The notes under the pieces are model-generated. The model saw only the letters and a program-made list of their open reading frames with translations, was not told the DNA's origin and made no database searches. A program made the position numbers and the translations under genes. 64,000 nucleotides of DNA from a virus. Shown piece by piece: positions 20,038-37,294 of the stretch; position 1 is the first letter of the stretch; every line of letters starts with the position of its first letter. The DNA lies in IMG/VR virus record IMGVR_UViG_3300024252_000004, positions 124,001 to 188,000 of that record; one strand, given 5' to 3'.

Positions 20038-20173
20038 GAGAAAAGATTTTCATTCTTGATAAGGAACTGGCACGGACTTTGCAGTGTATGCAAGGGGCAT
20101 GCCATCAATCTTTTCTCCCTGTTGTGAGGGGGTGAAAAGAAAGACACCTAAGTAACTCGTAAGATGTTATAGA
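20035..20173 (+). promoter_or_regulatory. Composite control element 3 (drives structured RNA 1)
   Basis: GGGGAGAAAA 20035-20044 with following GATT; dyad 20068-20104; inverted AATCTTTTCTCCC to 20119, so the outer GGGGAGAAAAGATT/AATCTTTTCTCCC pair encloses the dyad; GGGGTGAAAA 20129-20138; promoter box CCTAAGTAACTCGTAAGATGTTATAG ending about 20172. Confidence 0.8.
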
Positions 20174-20550
20174 GGGGTGCCGCGACGGCACTGAGCATGA
20201 CAGCGAGTCGGCGCCGACGACTTCGGCGAACCGACAACGACGAAACTAATAGCGAGAGGCTGAAGTTGACTCACAGACGTGTTCATCGCTGCCCACCGTC
20301 CGGGGCATAAACGGACGGCGGCGAGTAGTCGCTTGCGTGGATACCTTGGGGCCGGCAGTCCTGGGGCAAACTAAACGTAACGATGAAGCACCGGGTGTGA
20401 GGGAACGTGAAGACAGGACTCTGCCGGGTCTGGTCATGACACCTAAAACCCTCCTTTGTGACTCTGAGCATTAACCGGGCGACGGCTCGGTTCTGAGAAA
20501 GCAAAGAACGATTCCCCGTTGGGCAGCAAATGCTGTTGCCCAGCGGGACC
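20174..20550 (+). ncRNA. Structured RNA 1, candidate non-coding RNA
   Basis: About 375 nt with no credible rightward ORF, directly behind a promoter box and ending in an 11-bp stem (20515-20525/20537-20547, one G-U). Several internal stems are visible, for example CCGTCCG...CGGACGG around 20297-20320. The 5' part is rich in GACGAC/CGGCG complementary tracts. No family was recognised; the leftward ORFs that cross it look accidental. Ends and strand are inferred from the promoter and final hairpin. Confidence 0.6.
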
Positions 20551-22310: not shown

Positions 22311-22315
22311 CGCAT

Positions 22316-22510: not shown

Positions 22511-22531
22511 CTAAAGTGTAGGAGGTTCCCG

Positions 22532-22834: not shown

Positions 22835-22843
22835 ACGGCAAAA

Positions 22844-22870: not shown

Positions 22871-22873
22871 TCC

Positions 22874-23019
22874 GGGGAGAAAACTTTTGCGTTTATCTTG
22901 ATGAGGTGGTATGAATCTTGCAGAGAATGCAAGGGTTGTGCCACCCAGGGGAGAAAAGATTCATATGTATATGCTGGGGTGAAAACCTTAGCACACAGGA
23001 AACTGGTAGGGTGTTATAG
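22874..23019 (+). promoter_or_regulatory. Composite control element 8 (drives structured RNA 2)
   Basis: GGGGAGAAAA 22874-22883; dyad 22907-22943 with TGGTAT left and GTGCCA right arm; a second direct GGGGAGAAAA 22948-22957 where other copies have the inverted one; GGGGTGAAAA 22976-22985; promoter box ACAGGAAACTGGTAGGGTGTTATAG ending about 23019. Confidence 0.8.
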
Positions 23020-23020
23020 A

Positions 23021-23705
23021 AGGGTGCCGGAAAGACCCGGCAAACAGATGGATAAGGAGAATCGATAGAGTCTGCGAGAAGTGCGTGTCTCTCTTCTAAA
23101 CGCAACGCTTTGTAGCTCGTAATACCTCAGTCACCACGCAGGCGAATGCGTACCGGTGGTGACAGTTTGCCAGTCCGACGTGAAGAACAGCAGTGGTGGA
23201 TACCGGGAAGGGAAGCGGCAGCACCGTGAATAGCCGACCCGGAAACGCGAAATCGATAGTACAGACTCCCAGTAACGTGATACGCGCCCTTCGGGGAAAG
23301 CTTAACCAGTCTGTCTCGTAAGTGCATGATACCAAAGTGCAGTCCTTTAAGGGATGTAGCAGGCAACCGGAGCCGAGAACACCGAAAGGCAAATCCGGGA
23401 CTGAGGAAATGAGGTCGAAAAAGGATCGAAAGTCTGCGATCACCACCGCCATGGCGGGGTCAATCCAGGCGACGGAATCTAAGCTACTCGGTTAAGCAAC
23501 CTGAGACTAAAGACTTCCGGCGGGACTCTGCCGACATAGATAACTATAGAGGATGGACACGGAAAAGATGGGCTGCCCGGTGCAGACCAAGATGTCCATA
23601 ACATTTGCGCGAAGAGGTAGCTCCTACGAAGGCAAATCCTGTAAAGTTACCGCCCCCCACTCACGCGCCTTTGGCCGGTCATGAGTGGGGGGCGGCTCCT
23701 TTTGT
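23021..23705 (+). ncRNA. Structured RNA 2, large candidate non-coding RNA
   Basis: About 685 nt with no credible rightward ORF, directly downstream of a promoter box and ended by the strongest terminator in the window (23650-23707). The 5' end starts with TGCCGG-loop-CCCGGCA; many purine-rich joints (GAAA, GTAA, GGAA) and complementary GC tracts follow, as in ornate bacterial RNAs. Size and phage context recall ROOL (about 580 nt) and GOLLD (about 800 nt), but I could not verify a consensus match. Leftward ORFs crossing it are probably accidental. Confidence 0.65.
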
Positions 23706-23707
23706 TT
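23650..23707 (+). terminator. Strong intrinsic terminator of structured RNA 2
   Basis: CCGCCCCCCACTCA (23650-23663) pairs perfectly with TGAGTGGGGGGCGG (23682-23695), followed by CTCCTTTTGTTTT. Confidence 0.9.
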
Positions 23708-23723
23708 TCCCCGTATGTCAAGC

Positions 23724-23791
23724 TTTTCTCCCCTGCGTGTGCGTGTCGGGGTGAAAAACAATTCAACTAAGTAACTCATAGGGTGTTATAT
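23724..23791 (+). promoter_or_regulatory. Composite control element 9 (right half only)
   Basis: Only TTTTCTCCCC 23724-23733, GGGGTGAAAA 23748-23757 and promoter box AACTAAGTAACTCATAGGGTGTTATAT (ends about 23791). Sequence from the inverted decamer to the promoter is almost the same as at 22444-22510, suggesting recent copying. Confidence 0.75.
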
Positions 23792-23822
23792 CAAAGTATA
23801 ACAAAACCAAAGAGCAATCAAG

Positions 23823-24452: not shown

Positions 24453-24482
24453 AAAGAGCAATAGAAGATGTAAGGGGGCAAA

Positions 24483-24608
24483 GTGGAAATCGTCATCGTC
24501 TGGTACTCTGCGAACGAACGCGAAGACACTCCCGTGGAGGGGTTCTACCGATGGGATGATTCCCATTGTGGCGACAGCCTTTCCTTCGTCGGGACGGAGC
24601 TTCCATGA
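24483..24608 (+). CDS. Small unknown protein
   Basis: 41 residues: GTG start after AAGGGGGCAAA, product beginning MEIVIVWYSANERED and ending in the TGA at 24606-24608, which overlaps the next ATG. A short strand-helix-like peptide; coding status rests on RBS and overlap only. Confidence 0.45.
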   Translation: MEIVIVWYSANEREDTPVEGFYRWDDSHCGDSLSFVGTELP

Positions 24609-24919
24609 AAAGTCACGAAAAGTCTGATAGCAAACGCTGGGTGATTCAGCGCTGCGTTCGCTGCGGGCATTGGTGGGACCCGCATGGAATCTGGACAACC
24701 GACTGTCCGGCTCCGACCGAAGCTGCGCAGAGTCTGATGGCAGATCTGCGTGTGCTTGGCATCCGAAGCTCCGCCAAGCAGAATGTGGTGTTCGCATGGC
24801 GTACGAGGCGGGTGAATCCGTGGAATCGTAGGGAGTTCGATGCTCGGCACCAAACGGCCGAGGAAATCGAGAAAGAACTGCGAACCCATCCCACACGTCA
24901 GTCCCTTTACCGGGGCTGA
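24605..24919 (+). CDS. Unknown protein with N-terminal Cys/His segment
   Basis: 104 residues. IQRCVRCGHWWDPHG near the N-terminus and a CP about 15 residues later resemble a small zinc-binding element, though only three cysteines are visible. The rest is basic and helical. It overlaps the 41-residue gene by 4 nt. Confidence 0.65.
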   Translation: MKSHEKSDSKRWVIQRCVRCGHWWDPHGIWTTDCPAPTEAAQSLMADLRVLGIRSSAKQNVVFAWRTRRVNPWNRREFDARHQTAEEIEKELRTHPTRQSLYRG

Positions 24920-24923
24920 GGTC

Positions 24924-25017
24924 GGGGAGAAAAGATTGTTATTCTTGTGAAGGTATTCTCCCCGATGCCTAAGCCGGGGTGAAAAACAATTCAACTAAGT
25001 AACTCACAAGATGTTAT
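24924..25017 (+). promoter_or_regulatory. Composite control element 10 (dyad missing)
   Basis: GGGGAGAAAA 24924-24933; TATTCTCCCC 24954-24963; GGGGTGAAAA 24976-24985; promoter box AACTAAGTAACTCACAAGATGTTATAT ending about 25018. Confidence 0.75.
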
Positions 25018-25047
25018 ATCAAAGCGTAACAAAGGGATGAAGAAAGA

Positions 25048-25389
25048 ATGGGAACGGACCTGAACAAACTCCTTTCGGAGTGTGACGTTGAAACCTACGC
25101 TGCTTCGCGCGGTTCGGGTGGACAGAACGTCAACAAACGGGATACGGCGGTGCGTCTGACGCATCGTCCCACCGGAATCAAAGCCGGTTCCCGTTCCCAT
25201 TCCACGCAGGGACGGAATAAGAGCGAAGCGCTCAAACGTCTGGCAAAGAAGATCGCTCAGGCAAACGAGGTCAAGGCGGAGCGGTTGCCCACGGGAATCC
25301 CGCAGTCCGTCAAGGAAAAACGATTGTCTGATAAGCGTCGGACTTCTGCACGAAAGACCGGACGGAAGCCCGTCCGATCGGAGGACTGA
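25048..25389 (+). CDS. GGQ-domain peptidyl-tRNA hydrolase / ribosome-rescue factor (class I release-factor family)
   Basis: 113 residues. CDVETYAASRGSGGQNVNKRDTAVRL contains the GGQ motif (residues 24-26) that catalyses peptidyl-tRNA hydrolysis on the ribosome, followed by the family's THRPTGI and QGRNKSEALKRL segments. There is no codon-recognition domain. The last 30 residues are basic (EKRLSDKRRTSARKTGRK), as in ArfB/YaeJ, whose tail enters the empty mRNA channel of stalled ribosomes. PrfH-type proteins are an alternative. Heads a four-gene unit. Confidence 0.85.
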   Translation: MGTDLNKLLSECDVETYAASRGSGGQNVNKRDTAVRLTHRPTGIKAGSRSHSTQGRNKSEALKRLAKKIAQANEVKAERLPTGIPQSVKEKRLSDKRRTSARKTGRKPVRSED

Positions 25390-25391
25390 TC

Positions 25392-25601
25392 ATGGGCAAG
25401 AAAGAACCCCTGATTGAGACGGCGGAATGCTGGTGCGGTAAAACTGTAACGTGTTCGTCAGAGGATTTCGGAAAGCCTGACGTGGTAGTCCCCGGATGGG
25501 TTTCTTGGAAGCCTATCAAGAAAGAATGTTCGTGCGGAGAGTCTCTGATCTTCGGAATGGACTTCGACAAGTTTCTGAACCTCTTTGAGGTGGAGTACTG
25601 A
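25392..25601 (+). CDS. Small zinc-ribbon-like protein
   Basis: 69 residues with ECWCGKTVTC near the N-terminus and ECSCGES later: two CxC pairs about 35 residues apart, fitting one structural zinc site. Unknown function. RBS GAGG just before the stop of the GGQ gene; spacing 2 nt. Confidence 0.65.
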   Translation: MGKKEPLIETAECWCGKTVTCSSEDFGKPDVVVPGWVSWKPIKKECSCGESLIFGMDFDKFLNLFEVEY

Positions 25602-25787
25602 ATGGTGTTCTACTACCTGATGTCTCGCGGCATCTTCGCTGGCCTGATGGCCTATGGCTACGCCCACTACGAGAGCGAGATCTGGATCTGGGCAGGACTC
25701 GTCGCGCTGGTGCCTTTCTTGGGCGAAATCGTGATGATCGGGTTCCTCGTTTTCACGATGTTCTTTCTGTTGGGGTCTTTCGCATGA
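25602..25787 (+). CDS. Small membrane protein with two helices
   Basis: 61 residues, almost entirely two hydrophobic helices separated by HYESEIW. ATG follows the previous TGA directly. Unknown; holin or antiholin-like topology is possible but there is no lysis gene nearby. Confidence 0.65.
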   Translation: MVFYYLMSRGIFAGLMAYGYAHYESEIWIWAGLVALVPFLGEIVMIGFLVFTMFFLLGSFA

Positions 25788-26170
25788 AGTACGGACTTTC
25801 TCTCTCTTTCTGTGTGCGTGCGATCATTGATCGCGAGATCACTCTCTTCGAGATCGCTGGCATCATCTCTGCGACAAAGATGGAGTCGCCGGAGGAAGCG
25901 TACGAGCAGTACGGAAAGAGCTACTGGTCTGAGGCGTCAGAAGATGATGTGATGGTGGTCCTTCGGGAACTCTGGCCCCGAGTGATTCAGCCACGCATGT
26001 ACGGTCTTCCGCACCACAATATCTCCAAGGGAATCTGGTTGGAGGTTGCGCATGACCGGCTCCCGGTGCTCATCGAGGCGCGGCACTGTGCCTACTGGAT
26101 GGAGGGAACTGGTAACGAGCCCGCCATCGGTATGATTCGAAACGGTGGACTCTGGAAGTTTCTGGCCTGA
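25784..26170 (+). CDS. Unknown protein
   Basis: 128 residues, not recognised. Helical, with EEAYEQYGKSYWSE and RHCAYWMEGTG. Overlaps the membrane-protein gene by 4 nt (ATGA). Confidence 0.7.
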   Translation: MKYGLSLSFCVRAIIDREITLFEIAGIISATKMESPEEAYEQYGKSYWSEASEDDVMVVLRELWPRVIQPRMYGLPHHNISKGIWLEVAHDRLPVLIEARHCAYWMEGTGNEPAIGMIRNGGLWKFLA

Positions 26171-26177
26171 GCCTACG

Positions 26178-26203
26178 CCGAGCCTCCAATCAAGGAGGCT
26201 CGG
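26178..26203 (+). terminator. Perfect 10-bp hairpin
   Basis: CCGAGCCTCC-N6-GGAGGCTCGG, 7 nt after the stop at 26170 and 2 nt before the next decamer. Confidence 0.65.
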
Positions 26204-26205
26204 TC

Positions 26206-26302
26206 GGGGAGAAAAGATAATCATTCTTGTGAAGGTATTCTCCCCGAAGCACAGATAGGGGGTGAAAAACAATTCAACTAAGTAACTCATAAGATGTTAT
26301 AG
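26206..26302 (+). promoter_or_regulatory. Composite control element 11 (dyad missing)
   Basis: GGGGAGAAAA 26206-26215; TATTCTCCCC 26236-26245; GGGGTGAAAA 26259-26268; promoter box AACTAAGTAACTCATAAGATGTTATAG ending 26302. Closely matches element 10. Confidence 0.75.
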
Positions 26303-26327
26303 AGAGGCACAGAATCGGGAGCAGAGA

Positions 26328-26843
26328 ATGGATATTCTTTCGAAAGTCGGCATGGTGGTTGGGGTGACTGCGCTTTGCGCTTCGCTCTACTCTGCTTACT
26401 CTCACTTCTACGATGGGAAAACCGTCCCCGAGAAGCTCCCGATGGTGGGGCAGGCTTGGTGGGTGGAAGGAAAGGGGACCGTTCTGGTCGCAGAAGTCTA
26501 CCCTGCGGAAGATCGGATCGTCTACAAGACCAAGAACCACAAGGGTGGATGGTCGGACGATCTGACTACTGAGTCTACTCTCGGGCAGTTCATGAACTAC
26601 TCTCGGGTCAACAAGAAGATGACGACTCACGAGTCCGCTCCTGAGAAGAAGGATCGGCGTCCGATGGTGGGTCAGATCTGGGAAGTCGCCGGCTTCGGTG
26701 ATGTGCGAGTCCTTTACTGCGACGGCTACTCCGTTAGCTACAGCTACAAACTGGATCCGTGGAGAAATGAGTCGAGTGAGACTACGGATCTCGAACTGTT
26801 CTACCACTACGGAAACGTCAAGAAAGAGAAGGAGGCCAAGTGA
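26328..26843 (+). CDS. Membrane-anchored protein with duplicated beta domain
   Basis: 171 residues: one N-terminal membrane helix or signal anchor (VVGVTALCASLYSAY), then two related segments starting PMVGQAWWVEGKGTVLV and PMVGQIWEVAGFGDVRV. This looks like an internal duplication of a small beta (SH3-like) domain. Unknown function; probably faces the periplasm if the anchor is inserted N-in. Confidence 0.72.
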   Translation: MDILSKVGMVVGVTALCASLYSAYSHFYDGKTVPEKLPMVGQAWWVEGKGTVLVAEVYPAEDRIVYKTKNHKGGWSDDLTTESTLGQFMNYSRVNKKMTTHESAPEKKDRRPMVGQIWEVAGFGDVRVLYCDGYSVSYSYKLDPWRNESSETTDLELFYHYGNVKKEKEAK

Positions 26844-27169
26844 GTCTACCGAAGCTTCGCATTGGCAACATCGTCCACTGGAATGGCAATCCTTGGGGCG
26901 GAAAGGTTATCTCGAATGGATACGATCTGAATGGAGGGCTCGGGTTCTACTGTATCATCAAGGCTCCCCTTCAGCCCGTGCGCAGGGGTGGGCGTCCGCT
27001 CTGGCTGATCTTCGAAGACGGAACGGTGAGCCCTTCGCTGGGGGATTCCGAGCCTCTCATGTCCCTGCGTGTGAACGGTATCCCTTACCCTCTCGTCATC
27101 GAGGGAGAACTGGAGACGTACACGTTCGAAGGCGAGGGTGAACTCAAGTTCCTTCTGGAAACCCTGTAA
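26840..27169 (+). CDS. Unknown beta-rich protein
   Basis: 109 residues, not recognised. LRIGNIVHWNGNPWGGKVI at the N-terminus resembles the duplicated domain of the preceding gene. GTG start overlapping the upstream TGA by 4 nt. Confidence 0.68.
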   Translation: MSLPKLRIGNIVHWNGNPWGGKVISNGYDLNGGLGFYCIIKAPLQPVRRGGRPLWLIFEDGTVSPSLGDSEPLMSLRVNGIPYPLVIEGELETYTFEGEGELKFLLETL

Positions 27170-27193
27170 ACTTCTCAAACCCGCGAGTAACTG

Positions 27194-27370
27194 ATGCTTA
27201 GGCTTCTTTGGGCCCTTGTCAAATGGGGCATCTTCAGTTGGATGATCGATGTCAGAGCTTTCGGCTGGCACATTTTCCCCAGGGAATGGTGTGCTTGGGC
27301 TGAATGCACTTCGAAAGAGTGTTTGGCTCTGGATGACTTCGATGCAGCTATCTTTCGGCTCAAGGGCTGA
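27194..27370 (+). CDS. Small Trp-rich protein
   Basis: 58 residues: MLRLLWALVKWGIFSWMIDV... with a hydrophobic first half containing five of the tryptophans and an acidic second half (CLALDDFDAAIFRLKG). Possibly membrane-associated. Third gene of the 26328 transcript; no strong RBS. Confidence 0.5.
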   Translation: MLRLLWALVKWGIFSWMIDVRAFGWHIFPREWCAWAECTSKECLALDDFDAAIFRLKG

Positions 27371-27375
27371 AGGAC

Positions 27376-27434
27376 GGGGAGAAAAGATTGGAGGGTGAAA
27401 AAGAAAACACACAGGAAACTTATAAGATGTTATA
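27376..27434 (+). promoter_or_regulatory. Composite control element 12 (short form)
   Basis: GGGGAGAAAA 27376-27385, GAGGGTGAAAA 27391-27401 only 5 nt later, promoter box CACAGGAAACTTATAAGATGTTATAT ending about 27434. Dyad and inverted decamer are both absent. Confidence 0.7.
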
Positions 27435-27459
27435 TGAGGTTGTATTCTCCGGAGACAAT

Positions 27460-27771
27460 GTGATTCCCAACAGCAACATCCCGTCCTACGCAATCCCCTT
27501 CCACATCGGCGTCTGCGGTCTGATCATCGCCTGGGCCCTCGGCGTTGAGGCTGCCAAGTTCATCACGGAGGCCGTGATCACGCTGATCGGTGCGCCGATC
27601 CACTTCGCCCTGTGGACTTTCGATGCTGCGATCGACGCGGTCTACCTGAACGGCTACGAGTACGACCATCCGGTCGATGTCAATGAGCGTGCTGCGTTCG
27701 CTGTCGCGTCCGGTCACAGTGGGTTCGCCCACCGGCCGAGTTCTCATATCAGCGGATGGCGAGGCTACTGA
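27460..27771 (+). CDS. Unknown membrane protein
   Basis: 103 residues with two likely membrane helices (GLIIAWALGVEAAKFITEAV and LIGAPIHFALWTFDAAI) and a soluble C-terminus. The first in-frame ATG (27427) lies inside the promoter box, so it cannot be in the transcript; GTG 27460 has CCGGAG 5-6 nt upstream and was chosen. Confidence 0.68.
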   Translation: MIPNSNIPSYAIPFHIGVCGLIIAWALGVEAAKFITEAVITLIGAPIHFALWTFDAAIDAVYLNGYEYDHPVDVNERAAFAVASGHSGFAHRPSSHISGWRGY

Positions 27772-27802
27772 GCCTCTCCCGCTCCGGCTGCGGCCGGAGA
27801 TT

Positions 27803-27873
27803 GGGGAGAAAAGATAAGCATCCTTGTCAAGGAGTGAAAACCTTAACCCCCAAGAAACTCATAAGATGTTATA
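27803..27873 (+). promoter_or_regulatory. Composite control element 13 (short form)
   Basis: GGGGAGAAAA 27803-27812, AGATAAGCATCCTTGTCAAGG spacer (the same kind of CTTGT/GATAAGG spacer recurs in other copies), GGAGTGAAAA 27831-27840, promoter box AAGAAACTCATAAGATGTTATAG ending 27873. Confidence 0.7.
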
Positions 27874-27902
27874 GAATGACACCAAAAGATATCGAGGAAA
27901 CC

Positions 27903-28346
27903 ATGAAGTCTCTGCTCAACAGTCTGAACAAGTCTCTCCCTTCGATCATGGGATCGAAGAACCAGACGATGATCGATGCTGCTGTGCTGCTCAAGGCATC
28001 GATCACCGATCAGATCAACGGCGGTGGCCCGAAGGGCTGGGTCTGGCAGGAGACCGTGAGCGACAGCTTCGTCGCCCTCGATCTTCACCATCCTCAGCGC
28101 GGAAAGATCCGGGTCTTCTCGGCTTCGGAAGCGTGCTGGGACTGGCGACAGTATCTCGGTCGCGGCTACAACATGGGCACCGTTAAGCTGCCAAATGGCG
28201 GGAACGAGCCTGTCGGACAGTACCGGAATTTCAAGACGGGATTTCGGAACATCGTTCAGATCGCGAAGATCCGGTGGGGATCCATCACGGTCGCGGACGA
28301 GAAGCGGAAGGTCAACGACCTCAAGGGGAAATTCCATTGGGGCTGA
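27903..28346 (+). CDS. Unknown protein
   Basis: 147 residues, not recognised. Starts with a helix (SLLNSLNKSLPSIMGSK); central WVWQETVSDSFVALDLHHP suggests a beta core. Start 27903 has TCGAGGA upstream; the ATG at 27876 would be at or before the transcription start. Confidence 0.7.
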   Translation: MKSLLNSLNKSLPSIMGSKNQTMIDAAVLLKASITDQINGGGPKGWVWQETVSDSFVALDLHHPQRGKIRVFSASEACWDWRQYLGRGYNMGTVKLPNGGNEPVGQYRNFKTGFRNIVQIAKIRWGSITVADEKRKVNDLKGKFHWG

Positions 28347-28561
28347 ACGAACCGAAGTTCAAGACCTACGACGAGCGGAACCGTGCAGGCTGCTGTGCGC
28401 GGGGAAGCTGCGAAGAAAAGCTGTGTCCTGATGACACATGGATCAACAGCCTGAACAACAACAAGTACTGCGGTCCCTGCAAGGACTTCTTTTACTTTAG
28501 GCATGACCGATTCGCGACCGGAAAGATCCAGAGAAAGTGGACCCTCATGCCTTCGGGCTGA
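28337..28561 (+). CDS. Small cysteine-rich (zinc-binding-like) protein
   Basis: 74 residues from a TTG start that follows AAGGGGA by 7 nt and overlaps the previous gene by 10 nt. The pattern GCCARGSCEEKLC...YCGPCKDFFYFRH gives two cysteine pairs plus a histidine, a likely zinc-binding fold. Unknown function. Confidence 0.6.
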   Translation: MGLNEPKFKTYDERNRAGCCARGSCEEKLCPDDTWINSLNNNKYCGPCKDFFYFRHDRFATGKIQRKWTLMPSG

Positions 28562-28577
28562 GGGGATTCACCCTGTC

Positions 28578-28715
28578 GGGGAGAAAAGATATACATTCTT
28601 GATAAGGATTGGTACGGTTCTTGCACACACTGCAAGACCTATGCCATATAGCCTTTTGCCTATGCCCACCGGGGAGAAAAACTATTCATGTAAGTAACTC
28701 ATAGGGTGTTATATC
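28578..28715 (+). promoter_or_regulatory. Composite control element 14
   Basis: GGGGAGAAAA 28578-28587; dyad 28610-28646 (TGGTAC left arm, ATGCCA right arm); a second direct GGGGAGAAAA 28671-28680 in place of the GGGGTGAAAA decamer; promoter box TAAGTAACTCATAGGGTGTTATAT ending about 28714. Confidence 0.8.
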
Positions 28716-28749
28716 AGGCCGTGAGAGCAACCTACCCGGAGAGTGCAGC

Positions 28750-29073
28750 ATGGCCCGACCGACCTACTTCCTGATCGATGACGATTCGCTGGAGACCTAC
28801 ACGACCCTGGACGCGGAGGATCTCGACAACTGGGCTGTTCTGGTGAACGGTGCCATCGTCTCCATCGAGGCGGACGAGGAGGACTGTGAGATCCGCATCG
28901 CTGAGATCAATCGGGAGGGTGACAACCTGACCAACGATCTGGGCTTCGGTGCCGAAACGCAGTGCGACGACGGCGACGACGCCGACGACGACCAGGGCGG
29001 AGTCTGGGGCGACTTCGACAACACGGTCGGTGCGGGCGAGTGGGCCGACAAGGCCGTCCAGAAGTCCTGGTGA
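28750..29073 (+). CDS. Unknown very acidic protein
   Basis: 107 residues, strongly acidic (ADEEDCEIR, CDDGDDADDDQGGVWGDFD). Not recognised. RBS CGGAGAG 6-8 nt before ATG. DNA-mimic behaviour is conceivable from charge alone. Confidence 0.72.
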   Translation: MARPTYFLIDDDSLETYTTLDAEDLDNWAVLVNGAIVSIEADEEDCEIRIAEINREGDNLTNDLGFGAETQCDDGDDADDDQGGVWGDFDNTVGAGEWADKAVQKSW

Positions 29074-29363
29074 GTCGCCGTCTCGCAATCGTCCTCGATC
29101 CCGACAATAGCGATCCGGCCTGGGGTGCGGCTGAGGAGGCCGCCTTCCGGCGGTTCACCGACGAAAGCCACTACCCGGAGTCAGCCGAGGGCAATCCTGT
29201 TCCGGTTCTGGAAGGGGAGAGGATCCCGATCTACGATCTGATCGAGGCCGCCCGAGCCCTGGTGGACTGTGCCGATCACACCGGCTGTACCCCTGACCTC
29301 GCAGTTGTGGATTCCGATCCACTTTTCAAGCTCAAGCGTGTCCTCGACAGCATCGGAGAATGA
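29070..29363 (+). CDS. Unknown protein
   Basis: 97 residues from GTG 29070, overlapping the previous TGA by 4 nt. Acidic, alpha/beta, not recognised. Ends in a TGA that overlaps the next ATG by 4 nt. Confidence 0.68.
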   Translation: MSRRLAIVLDPDNSDPAWGAAEEAAFRRFTDESHYPESAEGNPVPVLEGERIPIYDLIEAARALVDCADHTGCTPDLAVVDSDPLFKLKRVLDSIGE

Positions 29364-29890
29364 CAGTGATCCCCTTCGTCTCGCATCCATCGGGGAATGA
29401 CATGAGCGCCCCAGAAATCGATTGGGACAACCAAGACCTGATCTCGAAGTTCATGCTTGACATGGATTCCGGAAATGTCCTGATTTCTTTCGCCGCGAAC
29501 CTGAGCATGGCAACTGCCCATATCGCTCCGGAAAACTTCTCTGCGTTCGTGGACGCATACGAGAAGCTTGCGGCGATGGATCCCAGTGAGCTTCAGGGGA
29601 ATGAGGTTGCCGTATGGCAGGACGGGAAGGTCGTTCAGGTGGTGGGATTCCCTGACCTGAAGCCCACGGACTGGTACATCGAAGCGATGCTGGCAACGGC
29701 GTACATCAAGTTTCGCGACGGAAAGGGGATGTTCGAAGATCGTACCCGCCTCATGTGGCATGGTCCGATTGGCACCCGTGGAACCTTCCTTGTCGAAACC
29801 TGCAACATCCAGAAGGTGGCCAAGATGCTCCGAGCAGCGATCCCGCTCGTGGCGGCGGCTGTGAAAACCATGAAGGAAGGTACCGAATGA
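29360..29890 (+). CDS. Unknown helical protein
   Basis: 176 residues, not recognised. An ATG at 29402 is a possible alternative start (GGGGA upstream), but the 4-nt overlap supports 29360. No membrane segment. Confidence 0.7.
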   Translation: MTVIPFVSHPSGNDMSAPEIDWDNQDLISKFMLDMDSGNVLISFAANLSMATAHIAPENFSAFVDAYEKLAAMDPSELQGNEVAVWQDGKVVQVVGFPDLKPTDWYIEAMLATAYIKFRDGKGMFEDRTRLMWHGPIGTRGTFLVETCNIQKVAKMLRAAIPLVAAAVKTMKEGTE

Positions 29891-30145
29891 AGCCCCTGAA
29901 AGAAGAGGATGCCCAAGCCATTCTCGCTGCGGCTTACAAGGCTGCGGCGGAAAAAAAAGAACACATGGCCCGTTATCCTCGATGTCTGCAAGGAGCGGGA
30001 AATCGAGTTCGGTTGGGCTTCCATGTTCTCCCTGATGACCGATTTCTTCTACGAAGATGTGCGTGAATGGAGTGAAGGAAACTACGGAAAGGACGCCATC
30101 TATTTCTACGCTCTGATTCCAGAAGACGAAAGCCATTCGGGGTAA
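29887..30145 (+). pseudogene. Frameshifted gene (A8 run) - unknown protein
   Basis: The frame starting at ATG 29887 (overlapping the upstream stop by 4 nt) reads MKPLKEEDAQAILAAAYKAAAE and then meets eight A residues near 29950. After them a sensible sequence continues only in the +1 frame (NTWPVILDVCKEREIEFGWA...), ending TAA at 30143-30145. One base too many in the run would restore about 85 residues. It may be a real mutation, a slippage-dependent gene, or a homopolymer sequencing error. Confidence 0.6.
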
Positions 30146-30179
30146 GGTCTACGAGGTGGGGGAATAGTCCCCTCCCTCC

Positions 30180-30276
30180 GGGGAGAAAACTATTACAAAT
30201 TAAGCAATGTTTTTCTCCCCGAGCCAGGAGCGGGGTGAAAAGAAATACACACAAGTAACTCATAGGATGTTATAGA
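30180..30276 (+). promoter_or_regulatory. Composite control element 15 (dyad missing)
   Basis: GGGGAGAAAA 30180-30189; TTTTCTCCCC 30211-30220; GGGGTGAAAA 30232-30241; promoter box CACAAGTAACTCATAGGATGTTATAG ending 30276. Confidence 0.75.
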
Positions 30277-30304
30277 GAGGCGCCTCCAATCATAGAGAGT
30301 CTCA

Positions 30305-30596
30305 ATGAATCGCCTCTTTCGCGTCTTCGTCTTCCTGGCCGCCACCGCCGCCCTTTTCGTCGTTCTTCCGGGGTTCAACCCTTCGACCCTGAACGAGATC
30401 ACGACCAGCGGCCTCGGCACGGTCGCGAAGGGGTTCCCTCGTGCCGGAGGTCTTCAAGCACCCCGGTGCATGTACCTTCGAACCGGCATACACGGATTCG
30501 ATGACGTACAGGGTCAGCTACATCGTGGGAGGACTCGTCTTCGCCTACGTCTTGGGGAAGCTGATCCAGAAGAAGAAGAAGAAGAAGAAGAAGTAG
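30305..30596 (+). pseudogene. Apparently frameshifted small membrane-protein gene with poly-Lys tail
   Basis: From ATG 30305 the frame gives a hydrophobic N-terminus (MNRLFRVFVFLAATAALFVVL) for about 45 residues. From about 30440 the +1 frame takes over with VFKHPGACTFEPAYTDSM, a second helix (VSYIVGGLVFAYVLG) and eight lysines, ending at 30594-30596. GTG 30441 could start the second part separately (51 residues). The original frame stays open to 30694 but runs into the next control element, so it is not credible beyond about 30440. Confidence 0.5.
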
Positions 30597-30622
30597 GGAG
30601 TCAGGGCTTCGGCCCTCCCTCA

Positions 30623-30695
30623 GGGGAGAAAAAGATTGCATTATCGATAAGGGGTGAAAACCTTAACACACAGGAAACTCATAAGACGTTATAGA
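30623..30695 (+). promoter_or_regulatory. Composite control element 16 (short form)
   Basis: GGGGAGAAAA 30623-30632, GATTGCATTATCGATAAG spacer, GGGGTGAAAA 30651-30660, promoter box CACAGGAAACTCATAAGACGTTATAG ending 30695. Confidence 0.7.
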
Positions 30696-30714
30696 GTGAC
30701 ACATGGAGAGGGTA

Positions 30715-30873
30715 ATGTGGTCATACAGTGAAGCTTCAATCCTCGCATCGCTTCCGCTTTTCGCGGTTGCAATGCTGATTGACTTCGAAGTCTTCGCTGT
30801 CCCAAGAACGACCATCTATCTCCTTCCGCTTATTCCGTTCGTGACGTTTCTGTTCTCCCGAGGTAAATACTGA
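30715..30873 (+). CDS. Small membrane protein with two helices
   Basis: 52 residues: MWSYSEASILASLPLLFAV..., with hydrophobic stretches at about 8-25 and 35-48 separated by VPRTT. RBS GGAGAGGG before the ATG; its TGA overlaps the ATG of the next gene by 1 nt. Confidence 0.6.
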   Translation: MWSYSEASILASLPLFAVAMLIDFEVFAVPRTTIYLLPLIPFVTFLFSRGKY

Positions 30874-31637
30874 TGGACATCGAACGATTCAAGAAGCTGG
30901 CAAGTCAGGCGCGTAGCTTCCGAGGTCTCATTGACTTCGCGGACCCCTACTGGGAGTCCTCCGTTTTCTTCGAGATTCCCTCGGCCAATGAGAAGGACGA
31001 GTACGCTTGTCCGCTCGCATCGTCGGACAATCTGGATTTCCTGGCAGGGATGTTCGGTGCGGGTAGCGACCTTCACGTCTGGAACTGCGTGTTCGTGTCT
31101 GAGCCTTCCGAAGAGGTTCGGGAGAGCTACAGTACCCACGGCAACAAGATGGCGCGGTACGTCCTGTGGACGGACAACCCAAGGTATCGCTCCGTCGATT
31201 TGATGAAGAACTTCATCCGTGACTTCACGCTCGGTTGGCGGCTGGCTCTCGCGCCCATCCGTGCGGCAGAGAAGGCCGCCGCAAAGGAAGCGGAAGAAGC
31301 CTTCCAGTCTCGCTGCGATGATTGGGTGAAGGTTTTCGGAGATGCCATCCAAAACTACAAGGTCGATTCGCGTGGGAACGAGTTCGCCGGGATTACCTTC
31401 AAGAAGGACCCCGACTTCAGAGCCTTCTACAGCCGCGTGACCTCGAAGGTCATGACGGCAGAGCAGTTCAGTGTGTACCGCCCCGGGACGCAGGAACTCT
31501 ATGGCAGGGGCAAAACTGTGAACGGGTCATTCGATCTGTACACGTTCGGTGCTCACCTGGAGATGTGGACCAACTGCTACCCGGATGATCCCGCGAACAA
31601 GGCTTACCGAAAGATCCGGCATCTTTGCCGGGTCTGA
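30873..31637 (+). CDS. Unknown protein
   Basis: 254 residues, not recognised. Mixed alpha/beta N-terminal half, a central Ala/Glu-rich helix (RAAEKAAAKEAEEAF, about 130-145), then a C-terminal domain with many aromatic residues. Translated with the upstream membrane peptide (TGATG). Confidence 0.75.
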   Translation: MDIERFKKLASQARSFRGLIDFADPYWESSVFFEIPSANEKDEYACPLASSDNLDFLAGMFGAGSDLHVWNCVFVSEPSEEVRESYSTHGNKMARYVLWTDNPRYRSVDLMKNFIRDFTLGWRLALAPIRAAEKAAAKEAEEAFQSRCDDWVKVFGDAIQNYKVDSRGNEFAGITFKKDPDFRAFYSRVTSKVMTAEQFSVYRPGTQELYGRGKTVNGSFDLYTFGAHLEMWTNCYPDDPANKAYRKIRHLCRV

Positions 31638-31683
31638 CCACGGGGCTTCGGCCCACCATCTATTCTGCTGAGAGGAGAGAATC

Positions 31684-31869
31684 ATGAGTATCCCAGGTTC
31701 CGATGGTGTCCGACAGACTTACATCAGTTTGGCACGCACGATCGCAAACGGGCACAATGCTTCGCCCGAAGAGATCAGTTGGGCCATCAGCATGCTCGAA
31801 AGCTTCAAGCGCCCTTCTCCGAAGAGTGTTTGGTACCTGAATAAGCTCAAGGCAAAGGTGGGAGGCTGA
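31684..31869 (+). CDS. Small unknown helical protein
   Basis: 61 residues, not recognised. RBS GAGAGGAGA before the ATG is strong. Ends just before an array of decamers. Confidence 0.65.
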   Translation: MSIPGSDGVRQTYISLARTIANGHNASPEEISWAISMLESFKRPSPKSVWYLNKLKAKVGG

Positions 31870-31881
31870 CGCCCTCCCTCC

Positions 31882-32084
31882 GGGGAGAAAAAGATTGCAT
31901 TGCCAAAGCGGGGAGAAAAGATTTATTCTTGTCAGGAATGTTGGCACGATCCTTGCATACACTGCAAGAGCTATGCCGGAAGTTTTTCACCCCGGGGAGA
32001 AAAGATTGTCATGGGGTGAAAAAGATGACAATGCCCCACCGGGGAGAAAAGATTAGTACACAGGAAACTCATAGGGTGTTATAG
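31882..32084 (+). promoter_or_regulatory. Composite control element 17 (decamer-rich)
   Basis: GGGGAGAAAA at 31882-31891, 31910-31919, 31994-32003 and 32041-32050; dyad 31942-31978 (TGGCACGATCCTTGCA left half, last base of the right arm changed); TTTTCACCCC 31984-31993 abutting the third decamer to form a 20-bp palindromic junction; GGGGTGAAAA 32013-32022; promoter box ACAGGAAACTCATAGGGTGTTATAG ending 32084. The densest copy. Confidence 0.8.
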
Positions 32085-32164
32085 AGTGTCGTCAGAGAGG
32101 CCGAGAGGATGGCCCACGCTACGGCAACGCATACTGAGTCGGTCATTCAGAGGAATAGACCAAA

Positions 32165-32193
32165 GTTTTCTAAACAACTCATGATGTGTTATC
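32165..32193 (+). promoter_or_regulatory. Second promoter-like box upstream of 32276
   Basis: TTTTCTAAACAACTCATGATGTGTTATC is a diverged copy of the box (core shifted by a short change), 80 nt upstream of the 32276 gene and about 80 nt after the box of element 17. The intervening 32085-32164 has no credible gene; a small ORF from 32109 runs out of frame into the next gene. Confidence 0.5.
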
Positions 32194-32275
32194 ATAGAGC
32201 GTCTGAAACGACCCAACCCGAGAGCTTGACTCTCAACACCCCGAGAGCTTGTCTCTCAAAGCCAAGGAAATCCCC

Positions 32276-32863
32276 ATGTCCAACACCGACTTCGAAGCCC
32301 TCGACGGTCTTGACCTCTCCGACAACAAGACGCTCAGCAGCATCGACATTCTCGGCGCGAACTTCACCGCCGGTCGCAAGGATGGGCAGCTCTGCGTCGT
32401 CTTCAAGACCAACGGCGGCAAGGGCTCCGGTCCCCAGACCGTTCGCGCGACCGAGCTCATCGAGTTCCGCGACACCCTGCACGAGTGTGTCGCCCGAGGG
32501 GAGGGGAGCACGGTCGAGGCCGGTTACATCCCCGCGCCGATCCTGCTCGGACGCAGCTTCGCGCTCGTCGCGAATCCCGGTCCCGGTCGCAACAAGAAGA
32601 ACGAGGTGACGCCCGCGCCCTTCGGCGGACGCGACTACTACGAGTGGAACAGCAACACGGGGCAGGGCACCGCGTCCAAGGGCTCCAAGCCCGCCAAGGT
32701 TCCGGTGGACGAGATTGATGGTTTCCTGGCCCTCTTCGACAAGAACGTGGACCAGACGGTCAGCCGGTTGATCTCCCTGGGGCTCATGGCGGACGAGGAC
32801 GCGGACGAGGACGAGGACGAGGGCGACGAGGTCGATCTCGACGGCATCGGTGACGAGGACTGA
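32276..32863 (+). CDS. Unknown protein with acidic tail
   Basis: 195 residues. A beta-rich body (ILGANFTAGRKDGQLCVVFK...) ends in a very acidic C-terminal tail (about 30 residues, repeated DE). Phage and bacterial ssDNA-binding proteins have such tails, but no OB-fold signature could be read, so the comparison is only architectural. RBS AAGGAAA; an in-frame ATG at 32249 lacks one. Behind two promoter boxes, so possibly strongly expressed. Confidence 0.72.
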   Translation: MSNTDFEALDGLDLSDNKTLSSIDILGANFTAGRKDGQLCVVFKTNGGKGSGPQTVRATELIEFRDTLHECVARGEGSTVEAGYIPAPILLGRSFALVANPGPGRNKKNEVTPAPFGGRDYYEWNSNTGQGTASKGSKPAKVPVDEIDGFLALFDKNVDQTVSRLISLGLMADEDADEDEDEGDEVDLDGIGDED

Positions 32864-32957
32864 ACGGTCACAGGTTGAGGGGCTTAACCGCCCCGAAACC
32901 AAGGCTCAACCAGCCGGTTAATCCCGGCTGGTTCGAGCTTCATTGTGTTTGTAAAGT

Positions 32958-33113
32958 TTTTCACCCCAGATGCGGGTGAGCACATGCAAAAGTTTTCACC
33001 CCCCGCTCGTAAGATTTTTCACCCCATACCTGCAAGCACACGCAAAAGTTTTCTCCCCGGCGGCCGGGTTGGGGTGAAAACCTTAGCACACAGGAAACTC
33101 ATAGGGTGTTATA
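32958..33113 (+). promoter_or_regulatory. Composite control element 18 (three inverted GGGGTGAAAA copies)
   Basis: TTTTCACCCC at 32958-32967, 32993-33002 and 33016-33025, TTTTCTCCCC at 33049-33058, then direct GGGGTGAAAA 33071-33080 and promoter box ACAGGAAACTCATAGGGTGTTATAG ending 33113. GCAAAAG recurs beside each box; the 37-bp dyad is absent. Confidence 0.75.
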
Positions 33114-33169
33114 GAGTGACGCCGGTAGAACTAACCGGTTAGCTTCCAAACCATGACCCCGAGGTCCAC

Positions 33170-33616
33170 ATGTCCCAGATGTCCAGTGCTCTCCTGCTTC
33201 TCGCCGCCAGCACGCTCCCCTCCGACACCGATGCCGCTTCCCTCCGGCTGATGCCCGCCGCCCTCCGCGATGCCGTCGAGGCCAAGCAGGCCGACGCCAA
33301 GGGGCAGGCCCTGGACGACGCGGCCGAGTCGGTGATGGCCCTGATCTCGAAGATGACCGACTACAAGCGCGGCACCCTCGTCGAGATCCGCCAGTACCGC
33401 CAGTACATCGCCCAGGAGAAGGGCCGGCTGGATGAGATCGATCGTGCCTTCGCGTACGGCAACGCGACCAGCAACTACATGCCCCTCATGATCGCGCTCG
33501 GAATGTCCACCGCGACCAGCGGCATGATGACCAGCGCGGACCGGGAGCGGCTGTCGGTCATCCCCGATGGTTGGACCCCGCCCGCCGATGTCCCGGCCGC
33601 GCCGACTGCCGGCTGA
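33170..33616 (+). CDS. Unknown helical protein
   Basis: 148 residues, Ala/Asp-rich, helical, with a hydrophobic start (SSALLLLAASTLPSD) too short and polar-flanked for a clear signal peptide, and a central helix (YRQYIAQEKGRLDEIDRAF). RBS GAGGTCC. Not recognised. Confidence 0.72.
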   Translation: MSQMSSALLLLAASTLPSDTDAASLRLMPAALRDAVEAKQADAKGQALDDAAESVMALISKMTDYKRGTLVEIRQYRQYIAQEKGRLDEIDRAFAYGNATSNYMPLMIALGMSTATSGMMTSADRERLSVIPDGWTPPADVPAAPTAG

Positions 33617-33630
33617 GAATCTGACGAATG

Positions 33631-33654
33631 GGGGCCGGGCCAGTCCCGGTCCCC
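33631..33654 (+). terminator. GC-rich hairpin after 33616
   Basis: GGGGCCGGG pairs with CCCGG-T-CCCC around a 5-nt loop. It marks the mRNA end and the start of structured RNA 3. Confidence 0.55.
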
Positions 33655-33659
33655 TGAGT

Positions 33660-34043
33660 CACACACGTCCGAACATGAATGCTAGGGACAGTGCGCGTGA
33701 AGGCCGCGCCCAGCCGAAAGGTTGCTCCGCTTTAAATTATGTTCGGCAGATCTGAGCAGAAACGGTGAAAAGGCATACTTGTTGCCTAAATGGTTTCGAG
33801 GAAGCCGCATAAGTATCCGTGGACGCAAGGAAGAGCCAAAACCTCGCTTCGGTATAGACAGTACACTAAAGACACTCGAACACATAAAGCTTATTAATCT
33901 TGTTTCTAGATTATTTGAGCACGCTATCGAGTTAGCCTGCCGGGAAGGGGGCTGCGTCTAATCACTCTTCGGAGTGGTTCTCGAAAGAGTAAGTGGGACT
34001 GGTATCGGGGCAAACCCACCGGGTGTAAATCCGGTGGGCGATG
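33660..34043 (+). ncRNA. Structured RNA 3, candidate non-coding RNA
   Basis: About 385 nt without a credible gene. Visible pairings: CCGAACAT...ATGTTCGG as a possible closing stem (near 33670 and 33738), CAGCC-GAAA-GGTTG (GNRA loop), CACTC-TTCG-GAGTG, and CCCACCGG...CCGGTGGG just before the next decamer. No promoter box precedes it directly, so it may be processed from the 33113 transcript. Family not recognised; ORFs crossing it (such as 33722-33961) look accidental. Confidence 0.5.
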
Positions 34044-34123
34044 GGGGAGAAAAGATATACATCCTTGTCAAGGAGTGAAAACTATAACATAGGTCTTTTC
34101 TAAACTTCTTGTAGGGTGTTATA
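34044..34123 (+). promoter_or_regulatory. Composite control element 19
   Basis: GGGGAGAAAA 34044-34053, GATATACATCCTTGTCAAGG spacer, GGAGTGAAAA 34072-34081, promoter box TTTTCTAAACTTCTTGTAGGGTGTTATAG ending 34123. The TTTTCTAAA upstream part is shared with the boxes at 32165, 35010 and 62217. Confidence 0.7.
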
Positions 34124-34151
34124 GAATGTTGCCAAACAACGGGGAATGCAG

Positions 34152-34688
34152 ATGCCTTTGACTGCGAAACAGGAAGCGCGAGTGGACATGCTCCTCCCGT
34201 ATTTCGATGAGGAATCCTTGGCAGCTTTCGCTGAGGAAGAGAACAGCCGGAACAACCCCGAAGACATCGTGGAACGAATCCTCACGGAGGTCACGGTCTA
34301 CGAAAAGGCAGGCGTCCGCAATCAGTACACGGGAACATACCGTGGTCATCCATTCATCATCGGAGAGGAAAACCGATACGTTGATGATGGGTTCACCCTT
34401 CGTGAAATGTATATCCGAACGCAGTACGGTGCAGGACGTGCGAGCAAGAAGATGATGGTCTTCATGATCTCCGGAAAGGTCGGAGGATATCCGACCGATG
34501 GACTGCGGTTCACAGACGAATTCAAGGGTCCGCTTGCGGACGTTCTCCAGTGTCTCTTCGAAGCTGCAAAGACGCGGTACAGAGATGCTGAGATTGAGCG
34601 TCTGATGAAGGCAGACACGAACACACCCACCCCAAAGGATGATGGAGATTTCGGACTCGATTCTCTCATCGTCACTCCACCCAACTGA
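34152..34688 (+). CDS. Unknown protein
   Basis: 178 residues, not recognised. N-terminal acidic helices, a central basic and Gly-rich part (YGAGRASKKMMVFMISGKVGG). ATG 34152 is better spaced from GGGGAA than the in-frame ATG at 34146. Confidence 0.7.
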   Translation: MPLTAKQEARVDMLLPYFDEESLAAFAEEENSRNNPEDIVERILTEVTVYEKAGVRNQYTGTYRGHPFIIGEENRYVDDGFTLREMYIRTQYGAGRASKKMMVFMISGKVGGYPTDGLRFTDEFKGPLADVLQCLFEAAKTRYRDAEIERLMKADTNTPTPKDDGDFGLDSLIVTPPN

Positions 34689-34715
34689 GGCGAAAGCCTG
34701 CGAAGTGAGGTCAGC

Positions 34716-34922
34716 ATGAACACAACTCTCGAAACCCCGTATCTCGGTCGCTCCGATGGTGGCAAGTTCGGATGGCGGAAGCCCAGCCGTCGCACCGAGG
34801 CTGCCGAGCGACAGACCGCACGCGATGCCCGAAGCACCGCCGAGCAGATCGCCGAACTCGATGCCCGTCTGGGTGTCGGCATCGGAGCGACGAAGGAGCG
34901 CGCACGTCTCTCCGCAGAGTAG
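34716..34922 (+). CDS. Small unknown protein
   Basis: 68 residues with an Arg/Ala/Glu-rich helix in the second half (TARDARSTAEQIAELDARLG). RBS GAGGTC. Second gene of the 34123 transcript. Confidence 0.65.
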   Translation: MNTTLETPYLGRSDGGKFGWRKPSRRTEAAERQTARDARSTAEQIAELDARLGVGIGATKERARLSAE

Positions 34923-34932
34923 AGAAACCCTG

Positions 34933-34958
34933 TGTCCCCTGGTTTTCCAGGGGACACT
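34933..34958 (+). terminator. Perfect 11-bp hairpin
   Basis: GTGTCCCCTGG-TTTT-CCAGGGGACAC, 10 nt after the stop at 34922. Confidence 0.65.
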
Positions 34959-34960
34959 CG

Positions 34961-35038
34961 GGGAGAAAAGATTTGCAGCCCCCAAGGGGAGAAAACTATA
35001 ACATTAGTCTTTTCTAAACTTCTTGTAGGGTGTTATAT
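34961..35038 (+). promoter_or_regulatory. Composite control element 20 (drives structured RNA 4)
   Basis: GGGGAGAAAA at 34961-34970 and again 34987-34996; promoter box TTTTCTAAACTTCTTGTAGGGTGTTATAT ending 35038, identical upstream of the core to element 19. Confidence 0.75.
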
Positions 35039-35040
35039 TA

Positions 35041-35990
35041 AAGTGTCCCCAGAGAGCAGGATACAACGGAAGTTACGCAAGCAAACACTGCGATGATTGC
35101 AAGCATACCAAATAATGTAAGCCGTCTGAGCAGGCAGGAACCTGCAAGGTAAGCATTAGGCAATGAGCGGGATATACCATTGAGACATGGAAGCTGATTG
35201 AGCGGGAAGGAACCTGCGAAGCGAGTGTCATAGGGAGCGCTGATTAGGCGCTGTGTTGACGGCGAGGGTTAAGCCACTTAGGGGCCAGTCAACTTTAAAC
35301 GTAGAGCCGCCTTAGCTCAGTTGGATAGAGCGTCGGCTTTCTAAGCCGGGGGTCGCTGGTTCGAGTCCAGCAGGCGGTACCACTTCACACACTCTCGGAG
35401 GCGGCAATACGCAGGGCTCAACCAACACACGTTTCGGCGTGGTATATACGGCCCGGGTTTACGAATAAGACTGTTGGGAATAGTAGACCAGATGCAGGGG
35501 AAGATCCTGTCCGAGACACACATCCACGGACAAGCTCAGCCGTGGACGAAAAGATGGGCGATTAGAGCATATGATTCTTAAGAGGGGCTGGTGCCCATGT
35601 CGAAAGACGAAACCAGTGCAACCCTCCATGCCCCGGATTTGCTGCGGGGTAGGATGTAGCAGGGGAGGATAGACGGTAAGACAGCATTACCTTCACGTCC
35701 CTGACATCCGCCAAGACAACCCAATCCTTGCGTAAGACACGCGCGCTTAGATAGCCAATAGGTTCAGACATGTTTTGATTAGTGGGCGACTAGCCCGCCA
35801 CTCAGTTAACGAGTGGGAATCTTAAGTGACTAACGATTGAGTTAAGTTGACAGAGTTGAGTTGAATAAAAATTGCGTTCATTGTGTCTTGATTGTAGCAC
35901 ATGCAGTTGAGACTGTCCGAAACGATAACCATAAAGGTGGACATAGACGAGGGCCCGTCGAGCCCTATGTGTAACGACATGGCGACCAGC
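35041..35990 (+). ncRNA. Structured RNA 4, giant candidate non-coding RNA enclosing a tRNA
   Basis: About 950 nt between a promoter box and the next gene with no credible ORF. A tRNA-Arg lies in its first half. Visible stems: GCAGG-AA-CCTGC (about 35132), TCCACGG...CCGTGGA (about 35521-35544), GGGC-GACTA-GCCC (about 35785) and CCACTC...GAGTGG (about 35798). Giant phage RNAs of the GOLLD class (about 800 nt) sometimes contain a tRNA, which makes this the best candidate here. The 3' end is uncertain; GGGC...GCCC near 35950-35964 could close it. Consensus match not verified. Confidence 0.6.
35306..35382 (+). tRNA. tRNA-Arg (anticodon TCT)
   Basis: Complete cloverleaf: acceptor GCCGCCT/AGGCGGT (first pair G-U), D-arm GCTC...GAGC, anticodon arm TCGGC-TTTCTAA-GCCGG with TCT at 34-36, five-base variable loop, T-arm GCTGG-TTCGAGT-CCAGC, discriminator A and encoded CCA at 35380-35382. 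It reads AGA, a codon used often in the AT-richer genes of this window but rarely in the GC island. It could also resist host anticodon nucleases. Confidence 0.95.
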
Positions 35991-36174
35991 ATTAGATGCG
36001 GTCGTAACGTTTGGGTCGGATTACTTCTTGGTAAGGTGTTGGTCTAAGCGCAACGTAAATGCTTTCGAAGGGCACGCACACCCGTTCTTTGATTGCATAA
36101 GGCGTAAGGATAGTAATGGTAGCCGCCGCACACCCAAACATAACACCATCCACAGTACCAAAAATGGGGGAGTC

Positions 36175-36420
36175 ATGAGAAGTAGAGATGTCGTGAAAGC
36201 CTGGGATAATGGAGTCCCAGCAGAAACAAAGAACCTGCGTACTGACGGTTTCGATCTGTGGTCTTACGAAGTGCTGATTGGTACTCGCCCAAACGCAAGC
36301 GCACAAATCGTCTTCGACTACACAGCTCCGGCTGGACATTTCGAATCACACACAACTTCGGTTCATGTGGGACTCGCGAAAAGAATCACGAACGCAAACG
36401 TGATTGAGCCTCCGGAATAA
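36175..36420 (+). CDS. Small unknown protein
   Basis: 81 residues: SRDVVKAWDNGVPAETKNLRTDG, then a short beta-rich part and a basic C-terminus. RBS GGGGGAG. The longer ORF from 36028 has no RBS and crosses the RNA 4 end region. Confidence 0.65.
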   Translation: MRSRDVVKAWDNGVPAETKNLRTDGFDLWSYEVLIGTRPNASAQIVFDYTAPAGHFESHTTSVHVGLAKRITNANVIEPPE

Positions 36421-36427
36421 AGAGTAA

Positions 36428-36521
36428 CCCCGAACACTCACAAGAATACTGGACATGCATCATGTTCAGCCTTCTTCTCTCTACAGGGTGTTTTATCCCG
36501 TGTTCTTTTGAGTGCTCGGGG
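36428..36521. repeat. Imperfect 19-bp inverted repeat enclosing a second hairpin
   Basis: Arms 36428-36446 and 36503-36521 match at 17 of 19 positions (CCCCGAACACTC.../...GAGTGCTCGGGG). The enclosed 56 nt include GGACATG-CAT-CATGTTC and a diverged CAGGGTGTTTTATC resembling the promoter core. It fills most of the 244-nt gap between 36420 and 36665. Confidence 0.6.
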
Positions 36522-36664
36522 TGTACTCCACATATACGCGTCCGCTACAAAGCGGAGTAACTCACCAATACCATTCGGGAGAGTATCAGGTTGTAGGACG
36601 ATCTGATTCATCTTGGCGCGTAGTGATAGTCCTTTCATATACACGAAACGGTAGGGAGCAGGCA

Positions 36665-37294
36665 ATGGCGACGAAGGAAAATTTCCAGAATCTCAAGCCT
36701 GACGTGATCGCAAAGACTCGCCTGTACTCTGACAACTCCCAGAGCTTCACAGTGCTCCATGGTGTCACCATGGAAGCGGCGCGTTATCACCTGAGTGTCA
36801 ATGAGAAGCTTGGTGGTAAGCCAGCACGGTCAATGCTCTTCAGGAAAATCTGCGACTTCACCTGTTTCGATGACAACCTCGGACGTGCGTACATGCCGCA
36901 ACCGTGGGCAAAGGGAATCCTTCCCATCTTCCCAAAGAAGTGGATGGTGAGCTTCGCCAATGGTTCGAAAATCGATCTGAGCTACACGGTTAGGCCGGGA
37001 AGCAAAAGGCAGATCGTTGGATATTCCTACGCTCTCGTACGACAAATAACCACTGGTGGGATCGGCATCTCCAAATTGACCAAGATTCTTTTGGAGGTTG
37101 GTTACTCGGGCCTCACCGTAGGTGACGTGATGGCAGCCGTAAAGTCCAGACCAGATCTGTTCGCGCCGCATAAGGGGCTTTCACAGTGGACCGTCAAGAG
37201 GGCTTATGACGCTGAGCCTATCTTGGAGGGTGATGCGGTGGCACAAACCAACAAGACGCTTCTGAAGGTCTTCAGACTCCTGCGTGACAAGTGA
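36665..37294 (+). CDS. Unknown protein
   Basis: 209 residues, not recognised. Starts MATKENFQNLKPDVIAKTR; the C-terminal 90 residues look like one or two helical DNA-binding-type domains (SKLTKILLEVGYSGLTVGDV, then WTVKRAYDAEP), but no named HTH fits. RBS GGGAG at the right distance; the ORF extends upstream to 36512 without one. Confidence 0.7.
   Translation: MATKENFQNLKPDVIAKTRLYSDNSQSFTVLHGVTMEAARYHLSVNEKLGGKPARSMLFRKICDFTCFDDNLGRAYMPQPWAKGILPIFPKKWMVSFANGSKIDLSYTVRPGSKRQIVGYSYALVRQITTGGIGISKLTKILLEVGYSGLTVGDVMAAVKSRPDLFAPHKGLSQWTVKRAYDAEPILEGDAVAQTNKTLLKVFRLLRDK

Follow-up and report, generated by a model that had tools for sequence, protein, structure and literature searches.

Why large phage RNAs lie beside tRNAs is the question that this locus bears on. 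RNA cages of the GOLLD and ROOL families have been suggested to hold tRNAs, and GOLLD is recognized as a non-coding RNA of ~800 nt or more, located in phages or prophages near tRNA genes and carrying a conserved 3′ region. The window analysed here is a stretch of 64,000 nucleotides (positions 124001-188000 of a virus record that is 395,127 bases long; coordinates below are window positions), in which a sequence-only reading had proposed a GOLLD-like RNA of ~950 nt at 35041-35990. We find at this locus a tRNA and a promoter-like box, and neither ORFs nor matches to RNA families; it is apparently ~1.1 kb of untranslated DNA behind a repeated phage box, with the tRNA enclosed. Its features are as follows:

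34932..34957, plus strand: perfect hairpin GTGTCCCC...GGGGACAC in the sequence behind the upstream gene, with no T run after it
34983..35037, plus strand: 55-nt element ending in the box CTTCTTGTAGGGTGTTATA (35019-35037), with a 93% copy at 34069-34123
35041..35305, plus strand: ORF-free 5′ leader of ~265 nt, with a fold energy that does not set it apart from shuffles
35306..35382, plus strand: tRNA-Arg, anticodon UCU (TCT), CCA encoded (ARAGORN and Rfam)
35383..36140, plus strand: ORF-free 3′ flank of ~760 nt (ORF-free on to 36174), from ORF and fold analysis
36009-36016 / 36132-36139, plus strand: closing stem of the 3′ flank, from fold prediction
36175..36420, plus strand: probable next gene of 81 aa, start preceded by GGGGGAG, no box of its own
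36427..36519, plus strand: long inverted repeat CCCCGAACACTC...GAGTGCTCGGGG, enclosing a hairpin (36449-36469) and a weaker box (36484-36495)

No plausible plus-strand protein gene was found across 35038-36174 (~1.1 kb). Between 35041 and 36140 the longest ORF reaches 48 aa on the plus strand and 69 aa on either strand, against 96 aa for the average longest ORF in shuffles of the same composition, which bears out the earlier claim of an ORF-free stretch. The end proposed at 35990 proved arbitrary, as the stretch is real but continues without ORFs to 36174, and the description of it as free of repeats was correct except for one imperfect 31-nt repeat (35115-35145 / 35187-35217, 81%). Reading TAG or TGA as sense opened no convincing frame at the locus, and a recoded gene was rejected on this basis. 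Upstream, the hairpin at 34932..34957 probably ends the previous unit. Downstream, no obvious terminator was found between the ORF-free RNA and 36175; the 81-aa gene, for whose product we found no known relatives, lacks its own box and thus probably shares the same transcript. The unit may therefore run on into this gene, and the inverted repeat behind it is a possible transcript end.

The box that leads the locus is shared with the rest of the genome. CTTCTTGTAGGGTGTTATA occurs at 34105 and 35019, with 0.02 occurrences expected in the window, and the 93% copy of the 55-nt element precedes a protein gene. A 12-base core of the box is found 24 times in the window, where 2.6 matches are expected, and 22 of these occurrences lie on the plus strand. 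The promoter box of the sequence-only reading is thus real and statistically enriched, but its core is genome-wide rather than peculiar to the tRNA-Arg locus. We counted ~29 phage boxes in the parts of the record that were read, 23 of them in the window, and distinguished two sub-types: one preceded by GGGGTGAAAA...CTAAGTAACTCA in the range 17.9-33 kb, and one preceded by TTTTCTAAA.TTCT elsewhere. For most of the 23 window boxes, the start of an ORF lies within ~60 nt (for the boxes at 23779, 30263 and 62233 this assignment was taken from the ORF list). Three lead into ORF-free units, namely those at 20160 (unit A), 23007 (unit B) and 35026 (unit D, the tRNA-Arg locus). As the box of unit D has no ORF start nearby, we read unit D as a box-led unit in which an RNA replaces the gene. 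The other two units are:

20172..20550, plus strand: unit A, box-led, without a plus-strand gene up to the following box, terminal hairpin, strongly folded (z ~-4.5)
23019..23710, plus strand: unit B, box-led, without a plus-strand gene up to the following box, closed by a GC-rich hairpin and a T-rich tail

From their layout, units A and B are candidate non-coding RNAs without a tRNA, so that this phage seems to have units that produce RNA only. Both close with hairpins, whereas unit D has no obvious terminator before 36175. Neither had matches in named phages, and comparison of units A, B, C and D in ten pairs revealed no significant sequence kinship (best pair B-D3, equalled or bettered by 9 of 200 shuffles). 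An ORF-poor stretch of ~480 nt at 33617-34100, after the gene at 33170-33616, folds with z ~-2.6 to -3.2 and had no match in an Rfam search. The window also contains TGGCACG-N4-TTGCA elements (23 matches against 4 expected), clustered in the block 17612-31957 and arranged as inverted pairs ~21 nt apart (for example, 20068-20104 and 20585-20621); these resemble sigma-54 promoters.

The tRNA itself is confirmed. ARAGORN and Rfam agree on a single tRNA in the window, tRNA-Arg(UCU), which forms a complete bacterial-type cloverleaf and scores 68.5 bits in Rfam against a cut-off of 29; a complete tRNA with encoded CCA had been proposed and is borne out. A separate promoter and terminator for the tRNA, together with the absence of a long transcript, had been named beforehand as a refuting observation, and we found no box of its own at 35306-35382. 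tRNA matches in the record number at least 43 and cover many specificities; a second tRNA-Arg(UCU) and one tRNA-Arg(CCU) are among those elsewhere in the genome. The ORF-poor surroundings of the tRNA at the locus span 1177 nt, approximately the third-largest among 43 tRNAs (median 325); for the largest, the value is artefactual, as a synthetase-like frame runs off the examined piece, and the second-largest has minus-strand frames on its flanks. Arginine codon use differs along the window. In the GC-rich block at 18500-37000, CGG and CGC are favoured and AGA is rare, unlike in the rest of the window; by crude gene calls, the window genes have 17-20 AGA per 1,000 codons if they lie outside 18-37 kb and 1.6 if they lie inside. 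The tRNA-Arg(UCU) would thus serve genes outside the adjoining block.

Several other tRNA-related sequences were observed in the record. A tRNA with anticodon CUA, of the amber suppressor type (Pyl according to ARAGORN), lies at L091:4960-5037, and TAG nevertheless ends 20 of 132 called genes. Odd tRNA-like sequences occur at L089:5857-6012, L089:4890-5220 and L088:5250-5342. One of them, which Rfam matches as a tRNA, extends over 156 nt and contains a large insertion; the others have tRNA-like 3′ ends and were not called by the programs. At L090:16590-17110, a tRNA-like 5′ part abuts a minus-strand frame that by eye resembles an HNH-type endonuclease gene, and a group I intron match of 72 bits lies at L089:2170-2630.

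Outside the tRNA, the locus has a fold energy typical of this genome, although the hairpins that had been described as stable are indeed predicted. The 5′ leader (35041-35305) has a z of ~-0.6 to -0.8, not different from shuffles. The 3′ flank has z ~-2 on the plus strand and +0.9 on the minus strand, and its plus-strand stability takes rank 19 of 41 in a comparison with background windows of the genome, which is average. The identical test gave z of -2.7 to -3.7 for expressed long RNAs of other phages (ICP1 and kayvirus), to which the 3′ flank comes close, but this measure separates expressed phage RNAs poorly from background (mean -1.9, s.d. 1.8). As the 3′ flank lies within the background, stability alone is uninformative. 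The difference between its two strands (-1.9 on plus, +0.9 on minus) was equalled by 1 of 39 control windows, a mild hint that points to a plus-strand RNA. No difference in base composition was seen between predicted loops and shuffles.

We searched for relatives of the flanks with several baits. Blastn against named phages and plasmids returned nothing outside the tRNA, and the exact flank pattern was found in IMG/VR exclusively in identical assemblies of the same phage. Flanking genes likewise recovered the same phage in another assembly, and the helicase recovered distant phages only. The terminase identified ~75 related loci at 62-73% identity; in named phages all matches were below 60%, the best listed at 26-30%. 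The 3′ flank had no match beyond chance in 50 related records, many of them fragments. With no homologues in the collections or in these 50 records, the flanks draw no support from conservation of structure.

The locus is most likely a phage-promoted non-coding RNA with a working tRNA-Arg(UCU), judging from its sequence, and its flanks would be either an unclassified phage long RNA or no more than a leader and a trailer. The transcription, processing and codon role that we infer here, together with any role of the flanks, would run as follows. In a jumbo phage rich in tRNAs, the locus would form one transcription unit that starts just 3′ of the box at 35019-35037 and yields a non-coding RNA of ~1.1 kb, with transcription probably continuing across the 81-aa gene as far as ~36.45 kb. 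Cleavage by host RNase P and 3′ processing would release tRNA-Arg(UCU), which would help to read AGA and AGG, codons that are common in most genes of this phage and rare in the adjoining GC-rich block. The second tRNA-Arg(UCU) in the genome counts against this explanation, as do the background-level fold energy, the lack of flank homologues in the searched collections and the lack of a terminator directly behind the RNA. The freed 5′ (~265 nt) and 3′ (~760 nt) pieces would then constitute an unclassified phage long non-coding RNA of the kind found beside tRNAs in other phages. We consider the odds evenly balanced for this full reading, in which a box-driven RNA is cut to free its tRNA and the flanks form such a long RNA, distinct from GOLLD.

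In a rival account, possible though we hold it tentatively, the flanks would be functionless: only leader and trailer around a precursor of the tRNA, and 5′ UTR of the 36175 gene, degraded once the tRNA has been excised. Folding at background level, the missing flank homologues and the lack of a separate box at the 36175 gene all fit this account, as does a box-led ORF-poor stretch of the same genome (L089:4890-6060) that simply holds several tRNAs; the flank lengths, unusual for this genome, and the two further box-led units that are ORF-free and have no tRNA argue against it. Rather unlikely, in our estimate, is a broader version of the long-RNA reading, in which several box-led units (20172-20550, 23019-23710 and 35041-36140) are new large structured RNAs of independent origin, one of them with a GOLLD-style tRNA. 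Decidedly improbable is a non-functional spacer, or decayed genes, that received a tRNA gene: it would agree with the absence of homologues, the ordinary folding and the position at the edge of the GC-rich block, but the ORFs are shorter than the average of random sequence of the same composition, the box ahead is intact and folding is biased to the plus strand.

Membership of GOLLD or ROOL was rejected, as neither covariance model matched at the locus or in the record. We ran cmscan with lax filters (E<=10) on both strands of 34900-36250 with the GOLLD (RF02032) and ROOL (RF03087) models, compared both models with the whole 395-kb record and searched 30 other records for GOLLD; none of these searches returned a match, and all rest on the Rfam models as published, with no match in any positive control. 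A divergent GOLLD or ROOL RNA with the tRNA in its variable part, which would fit published GOLLD in size, enclosed tRNA and tRNA-rich phage (PMC12286853, PMC6582537), is very improbable given these searches.

The long-RNA reading places the locus among several known systems. GOLLD resembles it in layout: GOLLD is a large phage RNA, often near tRNA islands, whose linker carries a tRNA in some cases (PMC12286853), and similar descriptions of size, enclosed tRNA and tRNA-rich phage have been given (PMC12286853, PMC6582537). The RNA would be of comparable size (~1.1 kb ORF-free behind its box), and the setting is shared: the virus record contains at least 43 tRNA matches, and one of these tRNAs lies inside the unit. 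The proposed likeness to GOLLD, which assembles into a multimeric nanocage (PMC12286853), therefore stands for the arrangement but fails for family membership, as the locus has neither a covariance-model match nor evidence of a conserved 3′ domain. ROOL is likewise a large phage RNA near tRNA genes, and differs in that the locus does not match its model. Ordinary phage tRNA genes are alike in that a tRNA with CCA that looks functional follows a phage box, but the leader of 265 nt and trailer of ~760-790 nt at the locus are long for this genome. The lncRNA of the lytic phage ICP1 (gp139-gp140) occupies ~1 kb of ORF-free space with fold z ~-2.7; ICP1 has no tRNAs, however, and its RNA has been shown to be abundant. 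If our reading is true, an RNA unit around a tRNA outside GOLLD would suggest that the association of RNA and tRNA arises repeatedly. In this uncultivated group of jumbo phages, the three box-led ORF-free units offer a handful of candidate RNA genes that can be tested. Kayvirus lncRNA1 and lncRNA2 (phage 515A1 / phage K) are ORF-free, 525-570 nt long, adjoin tRNA genes and fall outside named RNA families, with lncRNA1 directly after tRNA-Met (PMC7698491). They differ from the locus in being shown by RNA-seq, and we found no sequence similarity between them; the locus nevertheless shares their ORF-free character and similar fold z, and it fits the pattern of 0.5-1 kb of ORF-free sequence that follows a phage promoter box and adjoins a tRNA.
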